IMG/VR virus record: IMGVR_UViG_3300044638_004969 | Span: 1-49,529 of that record | Length of the DNA: 49,529 bases | Direction: 5' to 3' (one strand) | Source: a virus | Part shown: positions 3,001 to 49,529 of the stretch, in pieces | Numbering within the stretch: the first letter of the stretch is position 1 | How the letters are laid out: each line of letters begins with the position of its first letter | The notes under the pieces: model-generated | Database searches by the model: none | Told to the model about the DNA's origin: nothing | Seen by the model: the letters and a program-made list of their open reading frames with translations, nothing else | Made by a program: the position numbers and the translations under genes

Positions 3001-3822
3001 ATGGAAATTAAGTTATTAAAAAATTTAGGAATAGTCAAAAATCATAATAATAGACAATATGCTTATTATCAAACAGAATATGGCATTGTCAAGTGTGATT
3101 TAATGTATTTAAAAAAAGGACACAAAGTAACAATAACTAGTGCCATCAATAAAAAAAGTTTTCTGGAAAACTATGTTAGAAAGAAATATCAATCTAATAT
3201 AAGAATTTTAGAAAACTTTAAAGATGGTAATAGTAAGATTTTAATAAAAATAAATGGTTTTAAATATTATGTGTTCGTGGGTAATTTAAAGAAAAAATTT
3301 CCTAATATTTTATCATGTATTGATAAAGAATCTCAAACAATATATACTTTAAATAAAATCCATAATAATTATTATGATTATCCTAATTTTAAATATACAA
3401 ATAGTTCAAATAAAATAAAAGTACATTGTCCTATACATGGACTATTTGAGCAAAGTTTACAATCGCATTTAAAAGGTTCAGGTTGTTCTATATGTGCTCA
3501 TCAAAAATCTGCTTTAAAAAGAATAACATATACAAAAGGAATTAATAATGCTATTGTGTATTGTATAAAAATGACAGATATTGATGGGACTATATTTTAC
3601 AAGATAGGATTTACAAGACATTCTGTAAAATTTAGATTTATAAATACATATCAAAAAATGCCATACGATTATGAAATTATATATGAAAAGGTATTACCTT
3701 ATAAAGAAGCTTTATTAGAAGAAAATAAATTACATAAAAAATTATCACAACAACATTATGTACCAAAAATCAAATTTGATGGTTCAGCTACAGAATGTTT
3801 TTTAAATTATACTTATGAATAA
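3001..3822 (+). CDS. DUF723-like zinc module + T5orf172/GIY-YIG-like nuclease (homing type)
   Basis: 273 aa. The start was set at ATG 3001 because an upstream in-frame TTG (2965) lies inside the promoter. The protein has an N-terminal region of unknown fold, a zinc module around residues 115-165 (NNYYDYPNF ... CPIHGLFEQ ... GSGCSICA), then the nuclease core with IFYKIGFTR, and the same KFDG-x2-ECF tail as the gene at 75-809. It overlaps the DNA ligase start by 8 bases, so it sits between the promoter and a replication gene. A homing function is inferred from family and context. Confidence 0.7.
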   Translation: MEIKLLKNLGIVKNHNNRQYAYYQTEYGIVKCDLMYLKKGHKVTITSAINKKSFLENYVRKKYQSNIRILENFKDGNSKILIKINGFKYYVFVGNLKKKFPNILSCIDKESQTIYTLNKIHNNYYDYPNFKYTNSSNKIKVHCPIHGLFEQSLQSHLKGSGCSICAHQKSALKRITYTKGINNAIVYCIKMTDIDGTIFYKIGFTRHSVKFRFINTYQKMPYDYEIIYEKVLPYKEALLEENKLHKKLSQQHYVPKIKFDGSATECFLNYTYE

Positions 3823-7419: not shown

Positions 7420-8124
7420 TCAAAGTACTTTGCTTTTCAAGTATTTTAAAATAATTTCTTTCATCCTTTCTTTATCTTTTATCCAAAGCTCTTCTCTTAC
7501 ATGGAAGAGCCCAATACCTTTTTCTCTACATAAATTTGATTTCATTCCGTGATAACCTTTTCTAAAATGTTTATCTGAATAATGCCAAAAAAGCCCATTA
7601 AATTCAATAGCTACATTTAAAGCAGGAATAAAAATATCCAATTCATAAGGAGCTATTATATCTCGTTTATTTACTTCAATAGAATATCCTGATGCTATAA
7701 TAAATTTTTGAAGTTCTATTTCGGGTTTAGAAATAGAAGATTTACATTTTGCACATCCATTCCCCTTTAAATGATTCAATGCCAACTGTTTGAAATCTCC
7801 ATGTAAAGGACAAGTAATTGTAATTTTTGTATGAGCATTTTTATAATTAGATTTATGATATTGATAATCGTTTTTATGTATCAATTTTGATTTGGAAATA
7901 AATTCTGATGTAGTAAGTCGTTTTTTATAATTTGGACTACATTTGGGGCATCCTGAGCCTTTTATATGGTGATTTACACTTTGTTCAAAATCTCCATGCT
8001 TTTTACAAATGATAATTACTTTAGTTTTTGAATCTACATATACAGTTTCAGAATAGTCATATTTACTTCCATGTGTATTTCTAAATCGTTCTACAATTTC
8101 TTTTGTTGATAATATACTACCCAT
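7420..8124 (-). CDS. DUF723-like zinc modules x2 + Vsr/EDxHD-like nuclease
   Basis: 234 aa. There are two zinc modules of the pattern HG-x-KYDYS ... C-x3-HGDF-x-Q ... H-x2-G-x-GC-x2-C at residues about 18-63 and 83-128. The nuclease core follows: YELDIFIPALNVAIEFNG then WH (Asp163, Glu174, His181) and LFHVREELW (His208), as in the Vsr-like EDxHD homing endonucleases (I-Bth0305I type). The start overlaps the upstream gene's stop by 8 bases; it is the last gene before the 7361 terminator. Confidence 0.7.
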   Translation of the reverse strand: MGSILSTKEIVERFRNTHGSKYDYSETVYVDSKTKVIIICKKHGDFEQSVNHHIKGSGCPKCSPNYKKRLTTSEFISKSKLIHKNDYQYHKSNYKNAHTKITITCPLHGDFKQLALNHLKGNGCAKCKSSISKPEIELQKFIIASGYSIEVNKRDIIAPYELDIFIPALNVAIEFNGLFWHYSDKHFRKGYHGMKSNLCREKGIGLFHVREELWIKDKERMKEIILKYLKSKVL

Positions 8125-15490: not shown

Positions 15491-17539
15491 TTAAAACATT
15501 AATTCGTCTTCTGTTGTATCTACTTCTCTCATTGCAAAAGCATCTATAATGTCTTCTTTTTCAGGGTCTAATAATTCACAATATAAAGTCGGAGTATCAT
15601 CATCTAAACGTTTCTTTAATACATCATAATAAACTCTGTTCCCTCCTTTCAATCTAACCTGTTCTTTTTCAGACATTTTATCTGAATCCATAATATGCTC
15701 TTCTAAGTGTGCATATCTCTTACGATTTACAGTACAATATCCTAAATCTTGAAATCCTGCTTTCTGTGGAATTACCGAAGCCACTACAATATCTGAATAC
15801 TGCATAATAGCATCCGCTCCATAAATATACTCAGAAGTAACTCTAAGATTCATAGGATTTACATCTTTTGTTCTCCAAAGCCTTTCAATATCTCTATTTA
15901 ACTGTGATAGAGGGAAGAAAGTAAGTTTGTTTGGATAATCTAGTTTTAATCTATTACAAACCTCCATAATTTCAAACATTACTTCAAGTTTGTTTTTACC
16001 TTTACCAATACCGATGTGGTCAATAAAGATATATAATTGTTCTTTGTCTAAATTAGCCTCAATATATCTTCTACATACATATTCAAACTCCTGTGCATCT
16101 AATGATATATCTACTGATGTGAATCTAGGGTCACGAAGAGCATCTGCTACTTCTTTCATTTGTGCTACTTCCTCAGGAGTAGGTTTAATTCCTAATATGT
16201 CTTTAAATGATTTTCTAAGTTTTTTCTTTAGCTCTATTAATAACAAAGAAAACCAAGGCATCTCCCAATTAAAATAAAGAATTCCTATATTTTTATCAGG
16301 GTCAGCTAATAAATCTTTTCTGATTGTTTGTGCCATATATGTATTATGAGTTACTGTCATATCTTCTAGCAAATATAATCTATCTCCATCTAATTCAAAA
16401 CCATAATAATCATCTATTTTATCAAATTCTACTTTAATTCCTGTAACTCTCCAATCTTTATTTATTTCACGTTTTCTAGCTTTCTTTCTGCCTATAATTG
16501 TAGGAATTATATCAGTATTTCCTGATATTCTGATACGATATACTTTGCACTCATAATCCCTTGATTTTAACATTGCTATTTTTTCATTAAAAGTAGTTTG
16601 AAAACCCAATGAATTAGATAAAAATACAATTTGTTCAGCTAATTTTTTATTTTTTTGAACTATTTCAAAACCATTATTACTTTTTTCATAATACCCATCA
16701 CTGTCTAATATACCTGCTAATAATTTCAATCTGTTTTCTTTAGAGTTTATAAGATATTGTTGAGGAATATATTTTTCTTTCAGGGAGGTACGTTTATTTA
16801 AATTATAGATATTTCTAAATTCTTCAACATACATGTTTTTAGGTAATAACATTCCAAATTTCTGCGAGTTTGATGGGAAACCGTTTAATGATTTAATATA
16901 ACTTTGAATTTCTAAATCATTAGTATAAATCATTCGAATATTACTCTTACTCCCATCTCCAATCCACAACCCCATGTAATAAGGTTCTATTTCTAAATTT
17001 TTTTCAGAAAATTCTACATCAACTTTATATCCTTTATAATTTGATTTAAATTTATCGGATTTTTTAAGATAATCCTCCACAGATATATTAAGTATATCAC
17101 CTTTATTTCCTGCTCCTTCTTGTCTACTTTTTTTAAGTGAAAGTATATGACTTTTATTTACACAATAATCTATACCTTTATTTTGTCTAATCCAATACAT
17201 TTCCTCTTTCCCTCTCGCAAGAGATAAAACATTTCTAGGAGTAGAATCAATTCCCATTAATTTGTCACCTACTTTTACATCTTGGACTTCTTTGAAAGAA
17301 CCATCATACATTAATACTTTAGTACCTTTTCGCATACACTTCCCCTGTCCTGGACGTGCCAAAAGACTAATAATCAAATTTGGTAAAATACCCGCCCCCA
17401 AACAAAGTTCATTTAAAAATCCATAAGATACTGAAATTGGTATAATTTTTTTATTCTGTAAACTATAGATTGCCTTTACTGCATCATCTATACCTTTTGT
17501 GTTATGTTCTAAGAGTTTATTTAGTTTTTCGTTTTCCAT
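15491..17539 (-). CDS. dnaB: DnaB-like replicative helicase interrupted by an intein
   Basis: 682 aa; after removal of a 332-aa intein the helicase is 350 aa. The spliced P-loop reads ARPGQGK-TYMAQ, Walker A of RecA-type hexameric helicases. Further helicase landmarks are ILYFNWEMPW (H1a region), LYIFIDHIGIG (Walker B), PLSQLNRDIE (H3) and the ADAIMQYSDIVV-like H4 region. There is no N-terminal primase-interaction domain, so it is short for a cellular DnaB. It starts 4 bases after a -7 box (17544-17551). It unwinds DNA at the phage fork and presumably works with the PrimPol at 24454. Confidence 0.9.
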   Translation of the reverse strand: MENEKLNKLLEHNTKGIDDAVKAIYSLQNKKIIPISVSYGFLNELCLGAGILPNLIISLLARPGQGKCMRKGTKVLMYDGSFKEVQDVKVGDKLMGIDSTPRNVLSLARGKEEMYWIRQNKGIDYCVNKSHILSLKKSRQEGAGNKGDILNISVEDYLKKSDKFKSNYKGYKVDVEFSEKNLEIEPYYMGLWIGDGSKSNIRMIYTNDLEIQSYIKSLNGFPSNSQKFGMLLPKNMYVEEFRNIYNLNKRTSLKEKYIPQQYLINSKENRLKLLAGILDSDGYYEKSNNGFEIVQKNKKLAEQIVFLSNSLGFQTTFNEKIAMLKSRDYECKVYRIRISGNTDIIPTIIGRKKARKREINKDWRVTGIKVEFDKIDDYYGFELDGDRLYLLEDMTVTHNTYMAQTIRKDLLADPDKNIGILYFNWEMPWFSLLLIELKKKLRKSFKDILGIKPTPEEVAQMKEVADALRDPRFTSVDISLDAQEFEYVCRRYIEANLDKEQLYIFIDHIGIGKGKNKLEVMFEIMEVCNRLKLDYPNKLTFFPLSQLNRDIERLWRTKDVNPMNLRVTSEYIYGADAIMQYSDIVVASVIPQKAGFQDLGYCTVNRKRYAHLEEHIMDSDKMSEKEQVRLKGGNRVYYDVLKKRLDDDTPTLYCELLDPEKEDIIDAFAMREVDTTEDELMF
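16343..17338 (-). mobile_element. intein with LAGLIDADG homing domain inside dnaB
   Basis: Residues 68-399 of the precursor. It begins at Cys68 (CMRKGTKVLMYDG, block A), with block B NKSHILSL (His131). The homing domain has the two LAGLIDADG-type motifs YYMGLWIGDGS (187-197) and LLAGILDSDGYYE (273-285). It ends with YYGFELDGDRLYLLEDMTVT-HN; the +1 extein residue is Thr. Insertion lies between the Lys and the Thr of Walker A, so the helicase cannot bind ATP until splicing. All splice residues appear present; the inactivated-looking Asp in the second motif is intact. Confidence 0.9.
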
Positions 17540-25431: not shown

Positions 25432-26143
25432 ATATATCTAAGTACCTTTGATAATACTCAGAGATTTCTTTTGCTACTACAGCTACTTTATCTAAGAACT
25501 GTAATGCTCTATCTCTAGTATAAGGCGTTGGTATAATTTTAAATTCTTTAGTTAATTTTAGAGGACTTTTTTGAGTATTATTACCCGCCCGACCAATTAA
25601 CATTACATCAGAGCCTAGAATCTCATATCCCTCTATATCTTTTTGATAACTATATAAAGTTGTTTGTTGGTAATCAGGACTCGCATACTCAGGACTTTTT
25701 TTAATAATATTCCCTGTTTTAAAATCTCGGATATAAACTCCATTTTGGTCTAAGATATATTGACTTCTATCTATATATCCCTCCATAACAAAGTCTCCAC
25801 AATCAACTACAACTAAGTCTTCATAAATACTATTTTCAGGATATTCAAGAGAATCTAACCATTCTAAATCTTCTGCCTGTAAATATTTGATAGCAGGTTT
25901 TTCATTTACTCTTCCTGTACCCACCCATTCTTTATATGTTCCTACATCAGTACCAAAATCAGTAAAACAACTTCCTGGCGTATCTATTTTTGCAAAATAT
26001 CTTTTTATATAATCAGGTCGGTACTGTGCATCTTTCCATGAATTGTATTGTGAATAGCTGAGTTTTGGCTTATTATTATGCATACTATACTTTCCATCAG
26101 GTGTTTTATCCTGATAAGTTCTAGGTAATATTAAATTAGACAT
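25424..26143 (-). CDS. PD-(D/E)XK nuclease, RecB/Cas4-like, 239 aa
   Basis: The core has MEGYIDRSQYI (Asp125), YIRDFKTGNI (Asp140 and Lys142) and YQQTTLYSYQ (158-167), the G-x-ID ... D-x-K-TG ... Q-x-x-x-Y pattern of RecB/Cas4-type exonuclease domains. There are no cysteines for an iron-sulfur cluster of the Cas4 type. It is likely a DNA-end processing or recombination nuclease. It lies between a homing nuclease and the primase in one operon. Confidence 0.8.
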   Translation of the reverse strand: MSNLILPRTYQDKTPDGKYSMHNNKPKLSYSQYNSWKDAQYRPDYIKRYFAKIDTPGSCFTDFGTDVGTYKEWVGTGRVNEKPAIKYLQAEDLEWLDSLEYPENSIYEDLVVVDCGDFVMEGYIDRSQYILDQNGVYIRDFKTGNIIKKSPEYASPDYQQTTLYSYQKDIEGYEILGSDVMLIGRAGNNTQKSPLKLTKEFKIIPTPYTRDRALQFLDKVAVVAKEISEYYQRYLDIFG

Positions 26144-27026
26144 AATTTAATTCTTTGTTTTTTAATTTTGTATATATTTTATCTCTTGTCATATTTTTTA
26201 ATTTTGAATATTCTGTAATAGATTGATAAATATGGTCACCATCTGTTATTTTCCTTGTATTTCTAGGATTATGTTTAGGAATATACTTCTTTACTTTATT
26301 TTGCTCATAATCTTGTGCAATACATAGAAATGTGTCATTTGTTACCTCTCCCACCAATTTCTTATAATTTAATCTATCATTGTATTCTAATGCTTCAATT
26401 ATACTATAATAAAAAATTCCTGTAGCTGTATCAATAACATCTTTAGAAGCCTTATTTAATAATCCTGTCTTAGTCTTATTTATTCTTGAAAAAGCCTCTC
26501 TAGATTTTTCATTTATAGATTTACCATAATTATGATGATTTTCTCCTAAGGTTTTTCCCTTTCTATTATTACTAATTTTAGCTCTTGTTTCCTCACTTTT
26601 TATTTTCCCTTTATTTCCTAAACCTATTTTTCTTTTATGTTCTTCGGTTAAAGGAATACCTTTTCGCTTTGCATTTACATCAGGATTCGCCTTTCTACTT
26701 TCAGAAATCTTTTTTCGAGATTCTTCACATAAATAACCTGTTCTATCAGTTGATGATGTTCTGAAACAATTAAGTCCTAGATTAATACTATTATAATAAT
26801 CCTGCCAATATGCTTCTCTATCATTTAATATTGCTACGTCACACTCCTCAATAATTTCAAAAATATGAGTTTCAGTCCCATATTTAAGTAATGAATTTTT
26901 TAATTTAGTGTTGTATTTTTCACTTATTCTTTTATGTTCTAACCATCTTCTGTATATATCTACAGATTGTCCTATGTATATTTTTTTAGAAGGCGAAGTT
27001 ATTTTATATATTCCTATCTTTTTCAT
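26136..27026 (-). CDS. GIY-YIG homing nuclease with NUMOD3 repeats and HTH tail
   Basis: 296 aa. GIYKITSPSKKIYIGQSVDI (4-23) opens the core, with the Arg in IYRRWLEH and the catalytic-type Glu in DREAYWQDYY. NUMOD3 repeats follow (SEESRKKISESRK-like, TEEHKRKIGLGNKGK, SEETRAKISNNRKGK), and the C-terminus has two helix-turn-helix units like IENR1/NUMOD1 (SIIEALEYN and SITEYSKLKNMTRDKIY). First gene of the operon carrying the RecB-like nuclease and primase; it overlaps the next gene by 8 bases. Confidence 0.9.
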   Translation of the reverse strand: MKKIGIYKITSPSKKIYIGQSVDIYRRWLEHKRISEKYNTKLKNSLLKYGTETHIFEIIEECDVAILNDREAYWQDYYNSINLGLNCFRTSSTDRTGYLCEESRKKISESRKANPDVNAKRKGIPLTEEHKRKIGLGNKGKIKSEETRAKISNNRKGKTLGENHHNYGKSINEKSREAFSRINKTKTGLLNKASKDVIDTATGIFYYSIIEALEYNDRLNYKKLVGEVTNDTFLCIAQDYEQNKVKKYIPKHNPRNTRKITDGDHIYQSITEYSKLKNMTRDKIYTKLKNKELNYV

Positions 27027-27412: not shown

Positions 27413-27448
27413 CAAAGATACAAAAAATCCTTGAACTAGCAAGGATTT
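27413..27448 (-). terminator. fused terminator and promoter
   Basis: A 9-bp stem (AAATCCTTG at 27440-27448 on the - strand, CAAGGATTT at 27425-27433) with loop CTAGTT is followed by TTTG. The -7 box TATCTTTG (complement of 27413-27420) follows directly, and the CTTG inside the stem sits at -33 distance (19 bases). One 36-base element thus ends the nuclease transcript and starts the 27389 gene. Confidence 0.7.
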
Positions 27449-27571
27449 AAATGTTAAAATTTTGTTAAAAATTTAGTTATCACTTTTTTCATCTTTTCTT
27501 TATCTTTCAACCATAATTCCTCTCTGATATGTAAAAGCTTGATATTCTTTTCTTTACATAAATTGGATTTC
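27413..27571. repeat. 159-bp direct repeat, copy 1
   Basis: It aligns without gaps to 29494-29652 with 5 mismatches (about 97% identity). It includes, on the - strand, the last about 120 bases of a Vsr-like nuclease gene, a terminator hairpin and the -7 box of the next gene. Confidence 0.9.
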
Positions 27572-28350
27572 TTAGCGTGCTTTCCTGCTTCAAAATATTT
27601 TTCAGAATAATGCCAATATAATCCATTAAATTCTATGGCTTTGTTTAATTCAGGAATAAAAATGTCTAATTCGTAAGGCTTTATAATATTTCTTTTATTA
27701 GTTTCTATAACATATTCTAAAGATTTTACAAATTCCTGTAATTCCATTTCAGGTTTTGAAATTATAGAAATACATTTTGGACAACCTTTACCACTTAAAT
27801 GCTCATTAGGTGTTTGAAAAAATATCCCATGTTTTTTGCAAATTATTTTTGTCTTATATAAAATACCATCATAATGAGATTGTGAATAATCATATTTTCT
27901 TTTATGTATTCTTTTTGCTTTCTCGATAAACCATTTTAAAGTTTTGAAATTACCTTTTCCTGTTTTATTATGTCCACATTTTAGACATCCTTTACCTGAA
28001 ATATGATTAGAGGGTCTTTGTTTAAAATCCCCATGTAAAGGACAAGTTATGATAACATCTGTAATAGTGTTTTTAAAGTCAACTTTATGATACTTGTAGA
28101 AATTTTTATGTATTTTTCTTGCTTCATTTATAAACTCTATCTCATTATTATATTTGAAAGTACATTTTTTACAACCTTTACCATTTAAATGGTTATTGGA
28201 ATTTTGTTTAAATTCTCCATGTTTCTTACAAATTATAATGATACTATTTCTAGAACCTGTATAAATAGTCTTTGAATAGTCATATTTATCCCCATGAATT
28301 TCTTTTGCTTTAAATATAAATTGTTCTGTAGTAATTTTGATTTTAGACAT
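27454..28350 (-). CDS. DUF723-like zinc modules x3 + Vsr/EDxHD-like nuclease
   Basis: 298 aa from ATG 28350; a longer frame from ATG 28398 begins inside the structured leader and is rejected. Three zinc modules (GDKYDYSKT ... CKKHGEFKQ ... GKGCKKC; NFYKYHK ... CPLHGDFKQ ... GKGCLKC; RKYDYSQ ... CKKHGIFFQ ... GKGCPKC) precede the nuclease core YELDIFIPELNKAIEFNG then WH, and LLHIREELW. Its 3' end is nearly identical to the nuclease gene at 29535. Confidence 0.7.
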   Translation of the reverse strand: MSKIKITTEQFIFKAKEIHGDKYDYSKTIYTGSRNSIIIICKKHGEFKQNSNNHLNGKGCKKCTFKYNNEIEFINEARKIHKNFYKYHKVDFKNTITDVIITCPLHGDFKQRPSNHISGKGCLKCGHNKTGKGNFKTLKWFIEKAKRIHKRKYDYSQSHYDGILYKTKIICKKHGIFFQTPNEHLSGKGCPKCISIISKPEMELQEFVKSLEYVIETNKRNIIKPYELDIFIPELNKAIEFNGLYWHYSEKYFEAGKHAKKSNLCKEKNIKLLHIREELWLKDKEKMKKVITKFLTKF

Positions 28351-28456
28351 CTTATAAAAATAAAAAGTTCCTCTAAATCCATAATGGGTCTCACGCATTA
28401 CTTCATTAGAAGAACTAATATACTTTTGTTACCTTTTAATTTGAGACCGTAACCAT
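28351..28456 (-). ncRNA. structured 5' leader with kissing loops, copy A
   Basis: On the transcript: P1 GTTAC/GTAAC (28453-28449 with 28432-28428) with GGTCTCA in its loop (28448-28442); P2 AGTTCTTCTAA with TTAGAGGAACT (28416-28406 with 28376-28366, one G-U pair); P3 GTAATG/CATTAT (28401-28396 with 28386-28381) with a 9-base loop containing TGAGACC (28393-28387). The two loop sequences are perfectly complementary over 7 bases. The same arrangement is in the leader at 30246-30351. Start codon is 16 bases below P2. Function unknown; control of nuclease translation or RNA cleavage are possible. Confidence 0.7.
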
Positions 28457-28460
28457 CTTA

Positions 28461-28513
28461 CAAAGATAATTATAATATCTAAAAAATACAAAAGCATTAA
28501 TTTTTAGATTAAA
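28461..28513 (-). promoter_or_regulatory. palindromic nuclease-class promoter
   Basis: On the - strand: TTTAATC-TAAA-AATTAAT, GCTTTTG (CAAAAG on + at 28489-28494), 20 bases, TATCTTTG (complement of 28461-28468). The palindrome overlaps the stop codon of the exonuclease gene (28509). The -7 box lies exactly 111 bases from the nuclease start codon. Confidence 0.8.
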
Positions 28514-29474
28514 TCTCTTTTAGAAAATTCTGTATTTCAGCCTTCTTAGCTTGTTTAATATCCTCAGTATCAGATGCCATAAAAGTTGTTCTAATATAAA
28601 TATTTTCCAAAATATCTTGGATAAAATCTTTGTCTTTTTGAGTTAATCTTTTCTTACCGAAAACTTTTCTCATTGATTCTTTAATACTATCTGACAAATA
28701 ATCAGTCTGATATAATTTTTGTAAAGCAGAATCTTCTTGAACCATAGGTTCTGATGGGGAAGTTTCATTTCTGTCAATATAAGATAAAAAAGGACTTTTA
28801 AACTGCATTGCTTGGAATAAATTCACATTTGCAAATACATCTTTTTTAGCATATTCAGTAATCCTATCCATTCCCTCTGAGTAATATACTTCTGATACTT
28901 GAGAACCATCAATGTCTGTTTTACTACTTTCTAATCCAAAATGAAATAACATTTCATCTAAAGACATATTAGCATAATGTGTTCCTCTTAAAATATCCAT
29001 TAAGTCAATTACTGCTTTTAATTCCCAAGGTTTTTTACCCGAAGTAACAAATCTATCAGGAACAATATCAGTGTAATCAAAGTATTTTGCTGCATTTAAA
29101 TAACATACAGGTAAATCATATCCTAAGATGTTTACCCCACTTAAATAATCAAATTTGGCTGTAATATCAAAGAATTCTTTCAAAATATCTTTTTCTTCTC
29201 CCACCAAAGCTTTAACGTACACTTCTCCTGCTCGCACAAATGCAATACTGATTGCAATTACTTTAATATAACCTATTCTTAAAGCACCTCTTTTATTATA
29301 ATCTGCTAAGGTATCTTCAACACTAGGTAATTCATCTGTAACTTTATCTCTTATTTTTTTACGATAAAGTTGAAACTCTTTAGACTCAGGGTCTAATTCT
29401 TTACTTTGTCTTACTGATTCAATATCAAAAAACAATACTTTCTCAATTGGAATTTTCTTTAAATTACTGTTCAT
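28509..29474 (-). CDS. DEDDy 3'-5' exonuclease, 321 aa
   Basis: ExoI FFDIES (Asp17, Glu19), ExoII NILGYDLPV (Asp120) and ExoIII YAKKD (Tyr208, Asp212) identify a PolB-proofreading-type exonuclease with an RNase H-like fold. About 100 further residues follow without polymerase motifs. No DNA polymerase is seen in the window, so it could proofread for a separately encoded polymerase or act alone in recombination. It is a single-gene unit with the fused terminator-promoter in front. Confidence 0.8.
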   Translation of the reverse strand: MNSNLKKIPIEKVLFFDIESVRQSKELDPESKEFQLYRKKIRDKVTDELPSVEDTLADYNKRGALRIGYIKVIAISIAFVRAGEVYVKALVGEEKDILKEFFDITAKFDYLSGVNILGYDLPVCYLNAAKYFDYTDIVPDRFVTSGKKPWELKAVIDLMDILRGTHYANMSLDEMLFHFGLESSKTDIDGSQVSEVYYSEGMDRITEYAKKDVFANVNLFQAMQFKSPFLSYIDRNETSPSEPMVQEDSALQKLYQTDYLSDSIKESMRKVFGKKRLTQKDKDFIQDILENIYIRTTFMASDTEDIKQAKKAEIQNFLKEI

Positions 29475-29493
29475 TTTCTATATTTTATAGATA

Positions 29494-29529
29494 CAAAGAT
29501 ACAAAAAATCCTTGACCTAGCAAGGATTT
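29494..29529 (-). terminator. fused terminator and promoter
   Basis: The same element as at 27413-27448: AAATCCTTG with CAAGGATTT (29521-29529 and 29506-29514) and then TATCTTTG (complement of 29494-29501). It terminates the nuclease gene at 29535 and starts the exonuclease gene at 29474. Confidence 0.7.
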
Positions 29530-29652
29530 AATTGTTAAAGTTTTGTTAAAAATTTAGTTATCACTTTTTTCATTTTTTCTTTGTCTTTCAACCATAATTC
29601 CTCTCTGATATGTAAAAGCTTGATATTCTTTTCTTTACATAAATTGGATTTC
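29494..29652. repeat. 159-bp direct repeat, copy 2
   Basis: The partner of 27413-27571, 5 mismatches, no gaps. Downstream on the - strand the two loci carry unrelated genes (exonuclease here, a 91-aa gene there), so the repeat marks the 3' edge of the mobile nuclease unit. Confidence 0.9.
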
Positions 29653-30245
29653 ATTCCGTGATAACCTTTTGGTTTACAGTGCTTATTTCTTTGTTCATAA
29701 TGCCAATACATTCCATTGAACTCAATTGCTTTTTTCAATTCAGGAATAAAAATGTCTAGTTCTTTTCCATTTAATATTTTTCTACTATTTAATATTAAAT
29801 TATAATTGAAACTTTTTACAAAATTTTGTAATTCAATTTCAGATTTTGATATAATTGTATTACATTTAGGACAACCTTTACCTTTCAAATGGTCATAAGG
29901 CAATTGTTTGAATCTTCCGTGAATAGGGCATATTATCATTATTTTTTTATTAGAAGCTCTGTATTTTACTTGAGAATAATCATATTTACTTTTTAGATTA
30001 CATAATTTTGTATGAAATTCCTCTTGACTCTGAGATAAAGTTAGTGAAACTTTGTCATACCCACATTTCTTACATTCCAACCCAATCATATGAGACATAG
30101 CTTTTTGTTCAAATTCTCCATGTATAGGACAGATAATTGTTACTTTCTTTCTAGCTGTTATATAGTCTGTTTTTGAGTAATCATATTTTTCTCCATGCAC
30201 TATTTTAGATTTTTGAATAAATTCTTGTGTTGTTAATTTTCGCAT
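29535..30245 (-). CDS. DUF723-like zinc modules x2 + Vsr/EDxHD-like nuclease
   Basis: 236 aa. Zinc modules at about residues 17-60 (GEKYDYSKTDY ... CPIHGEFEQ ... LECKKCG) and 82-127 (KYDYSQVKY ... CPIHGRFKQ ... GKGCPKC). The nuclease core is KELDIFIPELKKAIEFNG then WH, with LLHIREELW near the C-terminus. Preceded by leader copy B and a palindromic promoter; the C-terminal coding DNA matches the gene at 27454. Confidence 0.7.
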   Translation of the reverse strand: MRKLTTQEFIQKSKIVHGEKYDYSKTDYITARKKVTIICPIHGEFEQKAMSHMIGLECKKCGYDKVSLTLSQSQEEFHTKLCNLKSKYDYSQVKYRASNKKIMIICPIHGRFKQLPYDHLKGKGCPKCNTIISKSEIELQNFVKSFNYNLILNSRKILNGKELDIFIPELKKAIEFNGMYWHYEQRNKHCKPKGYHGMKSNLCKEKNIKLLHIREELWLKDKEKMKKVITKFLTKL

Positions 30246-30351
30246 AATATAAAAATCCCTTCAATCTCCACAGTGGCTCTCAGGCACTGCTTTGAAAGAA
30301 GGGAAATATATTGTTAAGTTATCCGTAATTAAAGTTTGAGAGCATAACTAC
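30246..30351 (-). ncRNA. structured 5' leader with kissing loops, copy B
   Basis: On the transcript: P1 AGTTAT/ATAACT (30349-30344 with 30322-30317) with GCTCTCA in the loop (30343-30337); P2 TCCCTTC/GAAGGGA (30304-30298 with 30262-30256); P3 GCAGTG/CACTGT (30290-30285 with 30275-30270) with a 9-base loop holding TGAGAGC (30282-30276). Loop-loop pairing is again 7 bp, and the second base pair has changed on both sides relative to copy A (G-C to C-G). P1, P2 and P3 also differ in sequence but keep pairing. The distance from the -7 box to ATG is 111 bases, as in copy A. Confidence 0.7.
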
Positions 30352-30355
30352 AGTG

Positions 30356-30410
30356 CAAATATAACTCTACTTATTGAATTATCCAAATGGATTAATCAGG
30401 AGATTAATTA
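30356..30410 (-). promoter_or_regulatory. palindromic nuclease-class promoter
   Basis: On the - strand: TTAATCT-CCT-GATTAAT, CCATTTG (TTTG complement of 30384-30387), 20 bases, TATATTTG (complement of 30356-30363). Here the palindrome arms changed together (ATTAATC/GATTAAT), which supports selection on symmetry. It overlaps the stop of the gene at 30408. Confidence 0.8.
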
Positions 30411-45838: not shown

Positions 45839-48742
45839 TTATTTTGCAATCCCCAATACATCTTTAATTCTTTGTTCAATAGCTGTCGTAACTATATCAT
45901 TTACTCCATTTCTCATATCTTTAGGATTATAATCTTTTTGTCCTGTATCTTGCATAAAAATTGGCTTATCATTTTGTTTTACTATTAACGTCCATTGATT
46001 ATCTTTACGTTGAGTTGAAATTTCAATAGGTAAATCTAAAATTTTATTAATAGCCTCTTTATTTTTCTCTACTATCTCGTTTCCATAAGAAACTGTTAAT
46101 GCTCTTATCCAATCTTGTTGAGTTCTAGGAGGATTGTTAAAAGCTTTAGTTCTTTCATTATCAGGCATTAATTCTATTTTAGAATTCCACTCCTCTCTAT
46201 TAGTTGGAATTTCTGTTCTTGCTTCAAAATTAACAGAATATGGATTATCAGCTGAATAAATTTTTGTTGTACTTTCAGGTTTTATATTCTGTAAAACAGC
46301 TTGAGGTAATTCATCAATAGGAATACTTACAGACTTTGCAACATATTCTTTACCATCTTTAACAGGTAATGTTAATTGTGCCATATTAGTAGTTTGGTCT
46401 ATTAATATTTGAGCATTTCCTTTTTCTTGTATTTCATCTCCAACTTCCATATGTGCTTTAAAAGACCCTAACATTGACTGACCTAGCTTACTTCCTAAAT
46501 CTATATTTACAGTTTTATTAAAAATCTGTTTGTATACATCAGCTTTTTTATCTATAGCAGTCATCTGTTGTTTAGCTCTTTCTTTAAATAAAGATGGGTC
46601 AAAACTTAATTTACTTCTATCAACATCAGAATTTCCTAAATCTCCAGGTCTAGAGTTTGTAGAAAATGATTGTCTTAATCCTAATTGGAATTTATCTTTT
46701 GCTTTAAAAGATTCTCCATCTAAGTAAGATTTTTTAAAGTCATCATACATAGTTGATTTATCTGTAGTATCTCTCAAAAAAATATTATTAGCAATACCTT
46801 GTCCTGCTTGTAAAACTGCTCCTGCAAATTCATTAGCTACTTGTTTAAAGTAACCTCCTACACCCGAAGAATAACCTGTCTTATAAACCATTTTTTCATA
46901 AGCATCCTGAGCTTGTTTTTGACTTAATCCTGATTTAATCAAAGCATTTTTAGCCGCTCTTCTATATTTAGCTGCCTCAACATCTGTTAAATCACCACTC
47001 ATCAATGCATAATTAAAAGTTGTAATTGTTCTAGCTAAATCACCATTTTTTCCTGGCGCATTTAACACATCTCCTTTTACAACATTTCCCTTACTATCTA
47101 TTATATATCCTAATGAAGACTCAACAAAATTTCTTTGTGTAGAGGCTTTTGTATTTTTAGAAGCCATTGCTCTACCCATCTCCATAGCATCTTTTGTCAT
47201 AGCTTCAAGATTTTTATCAAAATCATTTAAGGCTTTTTTGTTACTTTGTAAATCATCGACTATACCTTTATTAGTATCAGAAATTAAGGCATATAACCCT
47301 CCATACTTTGAAGGAGAATTTACCATCATCCACGCTGCCTGTTTTGCATTTACATTATTACCCAATTGTTTTTTTATTTCTGCATTTTCAGGTCTTTGTA
47401 ACAATTCCTCAATCTCTTTTACAACTTCATTATTCAATAATGTTGCATTTTGATTATACGCTTTTTCTTGAGCTAAAAATCCACTTTCTGTTGTAATATC
47501 TTCTTGAGTTTTACCTGATTTTGTTACATTCATCCCATTAACAGGATTATTAGGGTCTAGAGATAAAGAACCATCTTTATTCTGTTTCCAACCTGCAATA
47601 GTTAAATCTTGTTGCATTTTTCTTTCTCTTTGCTGAAATTCTGCCTCATCCTTTTTAGCTTGATAATTAAAAGAATCTACTTTAAACTGATTCTCCCATG
47701 CTTGTTGTTGAGTTTTTTGCTCTGCTTCCCAAATTTTAAATCCTGTATCATCAATCTTCCAATCCTTTAATCTATCATAAGACAAGAAATCACTCCATTT
47801 ATCTTTAAAATCAGAATTATATAAGTAGTTTGCCATAGCATCTCTACTGATATTCATTGATTTTGTCTTATTGATATTATTATTACTATCTTCTAATTTT
47901 TGAATAGCTTGTTCAATTTGAGCCTTTTGAGTTCTTGTAGCTGTCAACGCCTGAGTTTTTAACTCATTGATACGTTCATTATTATATTTATTATAACCAT
48001 TTAACTTATCATCATATTGTTTCTTAATACTTTCACTAGGTAAATCCTTATAAGCATACTGTCCATCTATGTATAATTGATTTTGAACTTTAGAATCCAT
48101 CATCATATCTAGATATTCTTTTGCTGTTTCGGGAGCAATACGCTCAGAAGTACCAATCTTTGTAAAATATTGATTTCCTCCAATAGGGTCTACATGATAC
48201 TCTACCCCAAAATCTTTTAAATACTTGGAGTTCTCTAATAGTAACGCCTTAACATCTGTATAAGGAACATATGATTGAGCACGATATGAGTCCCCAACTT
48301 GACCTGATGTCATATATCGTTGATAATCCTGTGTAGCAAACCATTCATTTTGCATTGAATACTGATCGGGTTTATTTTTCTTGATATCCTCGATCTCAGC
48401 CATTTGCTTTCTCCTTGCCTGAGTAGAACCTATTGCACTAAGAACATTTCTATCTAAAGCTTGAGACACATAATTTTGAATATCTGATGCTACACTTTTT
48501 CTTGACCAATCTCTAGTACCTGATTCGTTTATATAATTTACAATTGTATTTAATCTTTCTCCAAAATACTGTTTATCCACATCTCTAAGTAAATCTGTTC
48601 CTGCATATTGGTTCACTAATTGTTGAACCTGAGCAACATTTGTATCATACATTTGTTGCTTATACTGCATAGCTTTTCCCAATACAGATATATCTAATTT
48701 TTCGGGATCTCTATATTTTGTGATCGAAAATGCCGTAGCCAT
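45839..48742 (-). CDS. large virion-type protein, 967 aa
   Basis: Gln- and Asn-rich, largely helical with long coiled-coil-like regions (about 240-300, 340-400) and no clear membrane anchor. It starts MATAFSITKYRDPEKLDI. Similar proteins lie in the structural block of crAss-like phages. It overlaps the upstream nuclease gene by 32 bases and is 12 bases from the 1847-aa gene, so the three form one transcription unit whose promoter lies beyond the window. Confidence 0.6.
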   Translation of the reverse strand: MATAFSITKYRDPEKLDISVLGKAMQYKQQMYDTNVAQVQQLVNQYAGTDLLRDVDKQYFGERLNTIVNYINESGTRDWSRKSVASDIQNYVSQALDRNVLSAIGSTQARRKQMAEIEDIKKNKPDQYSMQNEWFATQDYQRYMTSGQVGDSYRAQSYVPYTDVKALLLENSKYLKDFGVEYHVDPIGGNQYFTKIGTSERIAPETAKEYLDMMMDSKVQNQLYIDGQYAYKDLPSESIKKQYDDKLNGYNKYNNERINELKTQALTATRTQKAQIEQAIQKLEDSNNNINKTKSMNISRDAMANYLYNSDFKDKWSDFLSYDRLKDWKIDDTGFKIWEAEQKTQQQAWENQFKVDSFNYQAKKDEAEFQQRERKMQQDLTIAGWKQNKDGSLSLDPNNPVNGMNVTKSGKTQEDITTESGFLAQEKAYNQNATLLNNEVVKEIEELLQRPENAEIKKQLGNNVNAKQAAWMMVNSPSKYGGLYALISDTNKGIVDDLQSNKKALNDFDKNLEAMTKDAMEMGRAMASKNTKASTQRNFVESSLGYIIDSKGNVVKGDVLNAPGKNGDLARTITTFNYALMSGDLTDVEAAKYRRAAKNALIKSGLSQKQAQDAYEKMVYKTGYSSGVGGYFKQVANEFAGAVLQAGQGIANNIFLRDTTDKSTMYDDFKKSYLDGESFKAKDKFQLGLRQSFSTNSRPGDLGNSDVDRSKLSFDPSLFKERAKQQMTAIDKKADVYKQIFNKTVNIDLGSKLGQSMLGSFKAHMEVGDEIQEKGNAQILIDQTTNMAQLTLPVKDGKEYVAKSVSIPIDELPQAVLQNIKPESTTKIYSADNPYSVNFEARTEIPTNREEWNSKIELMPDNERTKAFNNPPRTQQDWIRALTVSYGNEIVEKNKEAINKILDLPIEISTQRKDNQWTLIVKQNDKPIFMQDTGQKDYNPKDMRNGVNDIVTTAIEQRIKDVLGIAK

Positions 48743-49529
48743 ATGTTAAAAATTTGTTAATTATTTGTTTCATTTTTTCTTTGTCTTTATTCCATAAATC
48801 TTCACGAACATGTAAAAGTTTAATTCCTTTCTCTCTACATAGATTAGATTTCATGGCATGATATCCTTTTGGTTTACAGTGCTTATTTCTTTTCTCATAG
48901 TGCCAATATTCCCCATTAAACTCAATTCCTTTATCTAATTTTGGAATAAAAATATCTAACTCATAAGGGGCTATAATATTTCTTTTATTTACTTGTATTT
49001 CAAATCCTAAACTTTCAATATAATTCTGCAATTCAATTTCAGGTATGGAAACTATTGAAATACATTTTGGACAACCATGACCTTGTATATGATTATTAGC
49101 TGTTTGCCAAAAAGAACCATGATTATTGCAAATAATTTCTATCTTTTCGGAAGATGTTTTATACACTACATTTGAGTAATCAAATTTATTTTTATGTATT
49201 AAAGTTGATTCTTTTATAAAATCTTCTTTTGTTTTACGTTTTAAATCACCTAATCTAATTCTAAAACATTCATTACATCCATTTCCCTTCATATGAGAAT
49301 TAGGAGTTTGTAAAAAATCACCATGCTCTTTACAAGTAATAATCACTTTTTTATGGGCACTTACATATTCAACCTTATTATAATCATAAATATTCTTATG
49401 TGTCAACTTAGCTTTTTCTATGAAATCTTTGGTATTAACCTTAAAATTATTACCGCATTTAGGGCAACCTCTTCCTGTGTATACATGAGATCCCGCTTGT
49501 TGCTCAAACTCTCCATGTAATTTACAAAT
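48711..49529 (-). CDS. DUF723-like zinc modules + Vsr/EDxHD-like nuclease, N-terminus outside window
   Basis: The frame stays open to the last base, so the TTG at 49406 is not the true start: the 41 codons upstream contain another zinc module (CKLHGEFEQ ... GRGCPKCG). At least three modules are seen, the first truncated. The nuclease core is YELDIFIPKLDKGIEFNG then WH, with LLHVREDLW. The last residues (TYGYGIFDHKI) are read from the beginning of the 967-aa gene, replacing the FLTKF-type end of its relatives; a 32-base overlap results. Confidence 0.7.
   Translation of the reverse strand: MCKLHGEFEQQAGSHVYTGRGCPKCGNNFKVNTKDFIEKAKLTHKNIYDYNKVEYVSAHKKVIITCKEHGDFLQTPNSHMKGNGCNECFRIRLGDLKRKTKEDFIKESTLIHKNKFDYSNVVYKTSSEKIEIICNNHGSFWQTANNHIQGHGCPKCISIVSIPEIELQNYIESLGFEIQVNKRNIIAPYELDIFIPKLDKGIEFNGEYWHYEKRNKHCKPKGYHAMKSNLCREKGIKLLHVREDLWNKDKEKMKQIINKFLTYGYGIFDHKI

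Follow-up and report, generated by a model that had tools for sequence, protein, structure and literature searches.

Organization of the Locus

The window, that is the whole stretch of DNA analyzed here, is an IMG/VR virus record of 49,529 nt (IMGVR_UViG_3300044638_004969). A pattern search for Bacteroidota-type promoters (TTTG-N19-21-TAnnTTTR) gave 19 matches in the window, compared with 6.0 expected. Two nuclease genes are located on the minus strand at 27454–28350 and 29535–30245, and a 3'-5' exonuclease gene (28509–29474, minus strand) lies between the two nuclease cassettes. The relatives of this exonuclease among isolated phages all come from Cellulophaga or Flavobacterium phages, the closest ones from the Cellulophaga phages phi17:2 and phi4:1, in which no annotated nuclease stands beside the same exonuclease. 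Both nuclease genes encode DUF723 repeats followed by a Vsr/EDxHD-like C-terminal domain, which resembles a 'mobile intron protein' in the Protein Data Bank (PDB entry 3r3p, profile E 0.006) that we take to be the EDxHD nuclease I-Bth0305I. Judged from these domains, both gene products are probably free-standing homing nucleases. The DUF723/CapR-type domain class has been described (PMC10448857).

The two nuclease cassettes are related to each other, sharing an 80% identical stretch of 429 nt that covers the 3' portion of the nuclease gene together with its terminator. Near-identical terminators end both cassettes (27425–27448 and 29506–29529, minus strand). Since the U run of the terminator leads into the TATCTTTG promoter motif of the next gene, the cassette looks insulated and appears to re-promote its neighbor. 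Several paralogous DUF723 nucleases are encoded in the window; further nuclease paralogues or fragments were located at 285–521, 3364–3549, 7420–8124, 26136–27026 (a GIY-YIG/NUMOD3 gene) and 48711–49529, and the leader described below is absent from those whose upstream region lies inside the window. In a 682-aa ORF elsewhere (15491–17539, minus strand), the N-terminal half matches terminase-large-subunit families and the C-terminal half a DnaB-like helicase family.

Anatomy of the Two Leaders

Each of the two nuclease genes is preceded on the minus strand by a leader (copy 1, 28351–28460; copy 2, 30246–30355), upstream of which pattern matching placed a promoter of the form TTTG-N20-TATCTTTG (28461–28492, minus strand) and TTTG-N20-TATATTTG (30356–30387, minus strand), respectively. 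The equal length of both leaders, claimed in an earlier note on this DNA, was reproduced, although exactly 110 nt, and not 111 nt, separate the end of the -7 box from the ATG in both copies. Along the minus strand both leaders contain, in this order, the helix P1, an A/U-rich linker, P2, a purine internal loop, P3 and the P3 loop. P1 comprises 5 bp, and a kissing strand starts straight after its 5' side. P3 comprises 6 bp and encloses a loop of 9 nt, composed of two free bases and a 7-nt complement of the P1 loop, after which the 3' side of P3 follows, so that the loop-loop (kissing) helix has 7 bp in both leaders.

In copy 1, the P1 hairpin (28428–28453) is formed by GTTAC (28453–28449) and GTAAC (28432–28428) with the kissing strand GGTCTCA at 28448–28442. 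Its P2-P3 hairpin (28366–28416) consists of P2 (28416–28405/28377–28366), the internal loop GAA/GGA and P3 (28401–28396/28386–28381), whose loop carries the kissing strand TGAGACC (28393–28387). In copy 2, the P1 hairpin (30318–30348) is formed by GTTAT (30348–30344) and ATAAC (30322–30318) with the kissing strand GCTCTCA at 30343–30337, and the P2-P3 hairpin (30255–30305) consists of P2 (30305–30294/30266–30255), the internal loop AAA/GGA and P3 (30290–30285/30275–30270) with the kissing strand TGAGAGC (30282–30276). These assignments, all on the minus strand, rest on covariation for the P1 hairpins and on folding together with covariation for the P2-P3 hairpins. Between P2 and the ATG lies a U-rich tail, which is TTTTATTTTTATAAG in copy 1 (28351–28365, minus strand; terminator score d = 12.5) and occupies 30246–30254 (minus strand; d = 18.5) in copy 2.

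The pairing reported in the earlier note was found as described: the loop strands are fully complementary in each copy with one pair swapped on both sides, P1 differs in its last pair, P3 reads GTAATG/CATTAT in one copy and GCAGTG/CACTGT in the other, and both P3 loops have 9 nt. The compensatory change between the two copies also withstood a count, since 8 of 30 pairs are altered on both sides and only 4 of 500 shuffles do as well. Folding of both leaders was better than that of shuffled sequences (z = -2.1 for copy 1 and -3.5 for copy 2); some of the single-sequence folds pair part of the U-rich tail with the linker or the 5' end.

Further Copies and Conservation of the Pairing

Covariance-model searches, as the earlier note had proposed, were carried out with models from which the kissing helix was left out. 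The model R1, built from the two window copies, matched two further leaders, both upstream of a DUF723 nuclease gene: one present in L046, L070 and L220 (E 0.0005) and one in L206 and L219 (E 3e-6). With the model R2, built from four copies (the window pair, L070 and L206), a leader in L319 ranked weakly (E 2.3) but was retained, given that P1, kiss and P3 are in register, the -7 box and the ATG are at the expected places and the gene is of the same nuclease type. The five-copy model R3 matched a leader in L415 (E 4e-7) upstream of an unrelated phage gene, all these E-values being rough because of short calibrations. Together with the two window leaders this gives six copies. The search thus bore out the expectation of the earlier note, as the four additional copies mostly precede nuclease ORFs and covary above practically all shuffles.

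All six copies share the same geometry of -7 box, P1, kiss, P3, U-rich tail and ATG. The -7 box is located 2–9 nt before P1 in every copy, with TTTG exactly 20 nt ahead of it in four of the six; P2 ends 9–29 nt before the ATG in all of them and is directly followed by the U-rich tail. The unpaired segments vary in length and letters. In L070 and L206 the internal loop GAA/GGA has its two sides exchanged, which would be compatible with a sheared G-A module conserved in shape.

The 5' kissing strands of the six copies (GGTCTCA, GCTCTCA, GCTTCGAC, GCTCTGAC, CTACCAC and CATCTCAC) pair with their own 3' partners over 7, 7, 8, 8, 7 and 8 bp, respectively. In a cross table on a fixed register of seven positions, the own partner was the best match for every 5' kissing strand. 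This matching is the strongest single evidence for the structure. Moreover, because no search model contained the kissing helix, its presence in the new copies constitutes an out-of-sample confirmation.

In the alignment of four copies, 20 of 30 pairs were compensated (at most 1 of 500 shuffles was as good), and the kissing helix alone was paired in 28 of 28 cases with four compensated pairs. With five copies, the number of compensated pairs rose to 24 of 30, none of 500 shuffles being as good on any measure, and sliding the partners by 1–3 columns lowered the pairing from 93% to 35–46%. P2 is less regular than the other helices, with 84% of its cells paired. The alignments were fitted to P1, P2 and P3, which favors those helices, and not to the kissing helix. 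From the five-copy alignment RNAalifold recovered the nested helices P1, P2 and P3 unaided, in a consensus fold that does not include the start codon. Finally, when all six copies were aligned by hand, P1 was paired at 30 of 30 positions, the kiss at 41 of 42 and P3 at 36 of 36, with compensation in most cases, and none of 2000 whole-strand permutations was as good; as the six sequences are few and partly related, these counts are no formal probabilities. Covariation in every helix, including the loop-loop helix, means that the predicted kissing-loop structure is well supported.

The genes behind five of the six copies encode a nuclease domain together with DUF723/CapR-type zinc repeats and are variably present beside conserved phage genes, as is typical of free-standing homing endonucleases. 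The nucleases in L070 and L206 gave weak matches to GIY-YIG-type models (MUG113, T5orf172), and the C-terminus of the L319 nuclease is similar to theirs. The gene behind the sixth copy (L415, 1614–2222) encodes a protein of 202 aa that lacks DUF723 and for which searches of Pfam, PHROGs, PDB and the isolated phages gave no convincing relative. In L206 (2485–3621) and L220 (1267–2394) the cassette of leader and nuclease gene lies directly upstream of a DnaB-like helicase gene, which is plausible as the protected homing target.

Distribution

Rfam 15 gave no match at gathering score in the window or in L037, L398, L319, L206 and L220, and a permissive Rfam search returned chance-level matches only. 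Neither 80 genome loci with DUF723 genes nor about 1,200 sampled Bacteroidota genomes (sets of 39, 397, 395 and 396, partly overlapping, the large ones strictly filtered) yielded a credible leader copy, and about 130 virus records, most of them with DUF723 nucleases, contained the known copies only. In the isolated phages phi17:2, phi4:1, csAssE-Sib, Calle_1, FpV4 and Lak-B4 and in one huge uncultured phage no copy withstood inspection, and BLAST of the leaders against isolated phages gave no credible match. From these sampled genomes, virus records and isolated phages, the leader looks phage-borne, rare and patchy.

Several candidates were discarded. Degenerate DNA patterns of the loops matched L219 and L220 in IMG/VR, and the other matches inspected were due to chance, lying inside coding ORFs or lacking the structure; those of a first, looser loop pattern were likewise taken as chance, judged among the matches listed. 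Neither P3 nor the kiss is present in the covariance matches in L304–L307, L317, L318, L419, L420, L425 and L426, which resemble ordinary hairpins or terminators. A loose kissing-hairpin descriptor matched the window about as often as shuffled sequence. With a stricter descriptor about 0.6 chance matches were expected in 225 nuclease upstream regions, compared with three true independent loci.

A different, second type of structured leader was observed before DUF723 genes in L037 (2375–2500), L051 and L398 (1395–1490), where it follows a TATCTTTG/TAACTTTG box and contains a conserved GGATAGRCGGAGGTAATTGRCCG. A 7-mer in its loop has a complement further downstream, with differing letters (GTCTATC/GATAGAC versus CCAACAA/TTGTTGG), and no match to this leader was found in Rfam.

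Discussion

The suggestion of the earlier note that an RNA outside the named classes is under selection before two nuclease genes can be maintained, in view of four more copies, covariation in all helices and the lack of an Rfam match; the occurrence in L415, however, shows that the leader is not nuclease-specific. Among the functions considered there, a regulatory leader fits best, and a processing signal could still account for the structure. The leader would act in cis to restrict or time the expression of the gene behind it, with transcription attenuation as the likeliest means, a proposal that we advance tentatively and at somewhat less than even chance.

The transcript would begin at the leader's own Bacteroidota-type promoter, giving a leader of about 100–110 nt. 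P1 would fold first, and the apical loop of P2-P3, on emerging, would pair with the P1 loop over 7–8 bp, whereby P1, the loop-loop helix and P3 could stack end to end. P2-P3 and the U tract would then constitute an intrinsic terminator, the efficiency of which the kiss might set in either direction. Being transcribed first, P1 is able to engage the P3 loop while the 3' side of P2 is still to be made, and is thus placed to favor or hinder the closing of P2. A run of five T at most 20 nt from the start occurs before both leader genes, but among the roughly 43 remaining genes of the window before only four. The classical terminator score is positive in three of the six copies (both window copies and L319) and negative in L070, L206 and L415, owing to an A that breaks up the U run at its beginning; two apparent terminators of the window phage themselves score about -5. 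Against attenuation, the U-rich sequence ahead of the start codon may alternatively have a role in ribosome binding. Flavobacterium data (PMC6847099) indicate that the phage hosts probably do not use Shine-Dalgarno sequences, and a classical hairpin sequestering the ribosome binding site would therefore be less natural here.

Other functions of the same structure have to be weighed against attenuation. The leader might be an operator whose P1, kiss and P3 are recognized either by the nuclease, by means of its DUF723 zinc repeats, or by a general RNA-binding protein of the phage, which thereby represses its own translation, in the way that T4 gp32 does on a pseudoknot at its mRNA start. Five of the six copies precede DUF723-repeat genes despite differing catalytic domains, so that the leader and the N-terminal repeats travel together; but this could simply reflect the transfer of promoter, leader and N-terminus as a single unit, the leader is missing from most DUF723 genes and the protein behind the L415 copy has no DUF723, which leaves an operator unlikely. 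A compact 5' fold could instead protect the mRNA or hold the A/U-rich start region open, consistent with the position of P1 close to the presumed 5' end of the transcript and with a start region left mostly free downstream of P2. Such a stabilizer leaves the specific U run after P2 and the rarity of the leader among genes unexplained, and the folds in which the tail is engaged by the linker or the 5' end would close the start region rather than open it; we consider it quite unlikely. Promoter, compact fold and terminator-like end would also make up a complete gene for a separate small RNA (about 100 nt) that works in trans or as a partner of the protein, in which case the gene behind it would be expressed by read-through. 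In each copy, however, the ATG follows within 9–29 nt, and the kissing strands vary from copy to copy and offer no conserved exposed seed, which makes this reading very unlikely.

The size and the compact pseudoknotted fold recall a small self-cleaving ribozyme, which the earlier note had also considered, or a metabolite riboswitch. The low conservation of the unpaired segments, with no invariant unpaired catalytic-core nucleotides over six copies, argues against both, and no ribozyme family matches, so that this interpretation is highly improbable. That the complementarity reflects chance or was inherited through a recent duplication, to which the relatedness of the window cassettes might point, is hardly credible: the window copies differ by eight compensated pairs, independent copies keep the pairing with different letters, and the strict descriptor at the observed score is expected in only about 0.0026 of 270-nt stretches of AT-rich loci.

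Attenuation, as the preferred reading, invites comparison with known systems. In intrinsic-terminator attenuators a hairpin and then a U run stand shortly before the start codon, and the leaders resemble them in the succession of P2-P3 hairpin, U-rich tract and start codon. They differ in that the hairpin loop pairs with the loop of an upstream hairpin, and neither a pocket for a ligand nor a conserved leader peptide or an antiterminator strand was found in them; short ATG ORFs occur in both window leaders and none in L070 or L206, for which reason a leader peptide was rejected, and no alternative antiterminator pairing was detected. HEARO, the omega RNA of IscB elements, is likewise a structured RNA beside a mobile nuclease gene, but the leaders match no Rfam model, their proteins are DUF723 nucleases and one neighbor is no nuclease.

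The closest parallel is provided by homing endonuclease genes of the T4 type (I-TevI, I-TevII, I-TevIII, segB and mobE), the translation of which is controlled by RNA hairpins (PMC2988022). In both cases a structured RNA stands just upstream of a phage homing endonuclease gene, where it presumably limits or times expression. In the T4-type genes the hairpin sequesters the Shine-Dalgarno site and a late promoter lies inside the hairpin, which therefore forms on read-through transcripts only (PMC2988022). In the leaders described here, two hairpins are joined by a loop-loop helix, the start lies outside the consensus fold and the -7 box precedes P1 in all six copies. Since this promoter precedes all the helices, the T4 scheme, in which late mRNAs lack the hairpin (PMC2988022), cannot apply. 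In Aeromonas phage 25, the free-standing homing endonuclease gene seg43(25) has a stable hairpin right in front of it that stops short of the start region, as in the present leaders, but it is a single hairpin for which no kissing partner is described (PMC2988022). Since T4-like phages are known to have structured leaders before their homing endonuclease genes, the kind of element is not new in itself. As far as our searches show, novelty lies in the kissing-loop architecture and the promoter arrangement, in the group of phages concerned and in the finding of a copy before a non-nuclease gene, and no paper tying kissing loops to homing endonuclease leaders was found in the literature.

The leaders might constitute a new class of RNA, namely kissing-loop attenuators carried by phages, in which an upstream hairpin holds the terminator hairpin loop to loop and so sets read-through, and which Bacteroidota phages and their homing nucleases employ for unrelated genes; we regard this broader view as possible but doubtful. 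What has been found is a small RNA with strong covariation over six copies, outside Rfam and mostly before selfish nuclease genes. The expression of a selfish nuclease must be restrained for the survival of phage and element, and the leaders offer a concrete, testable case of such self-limitation in hosts that rarely use Shine-Dalgarno sequences, with a loop-loop interaction simple enough for mutation and rescue.
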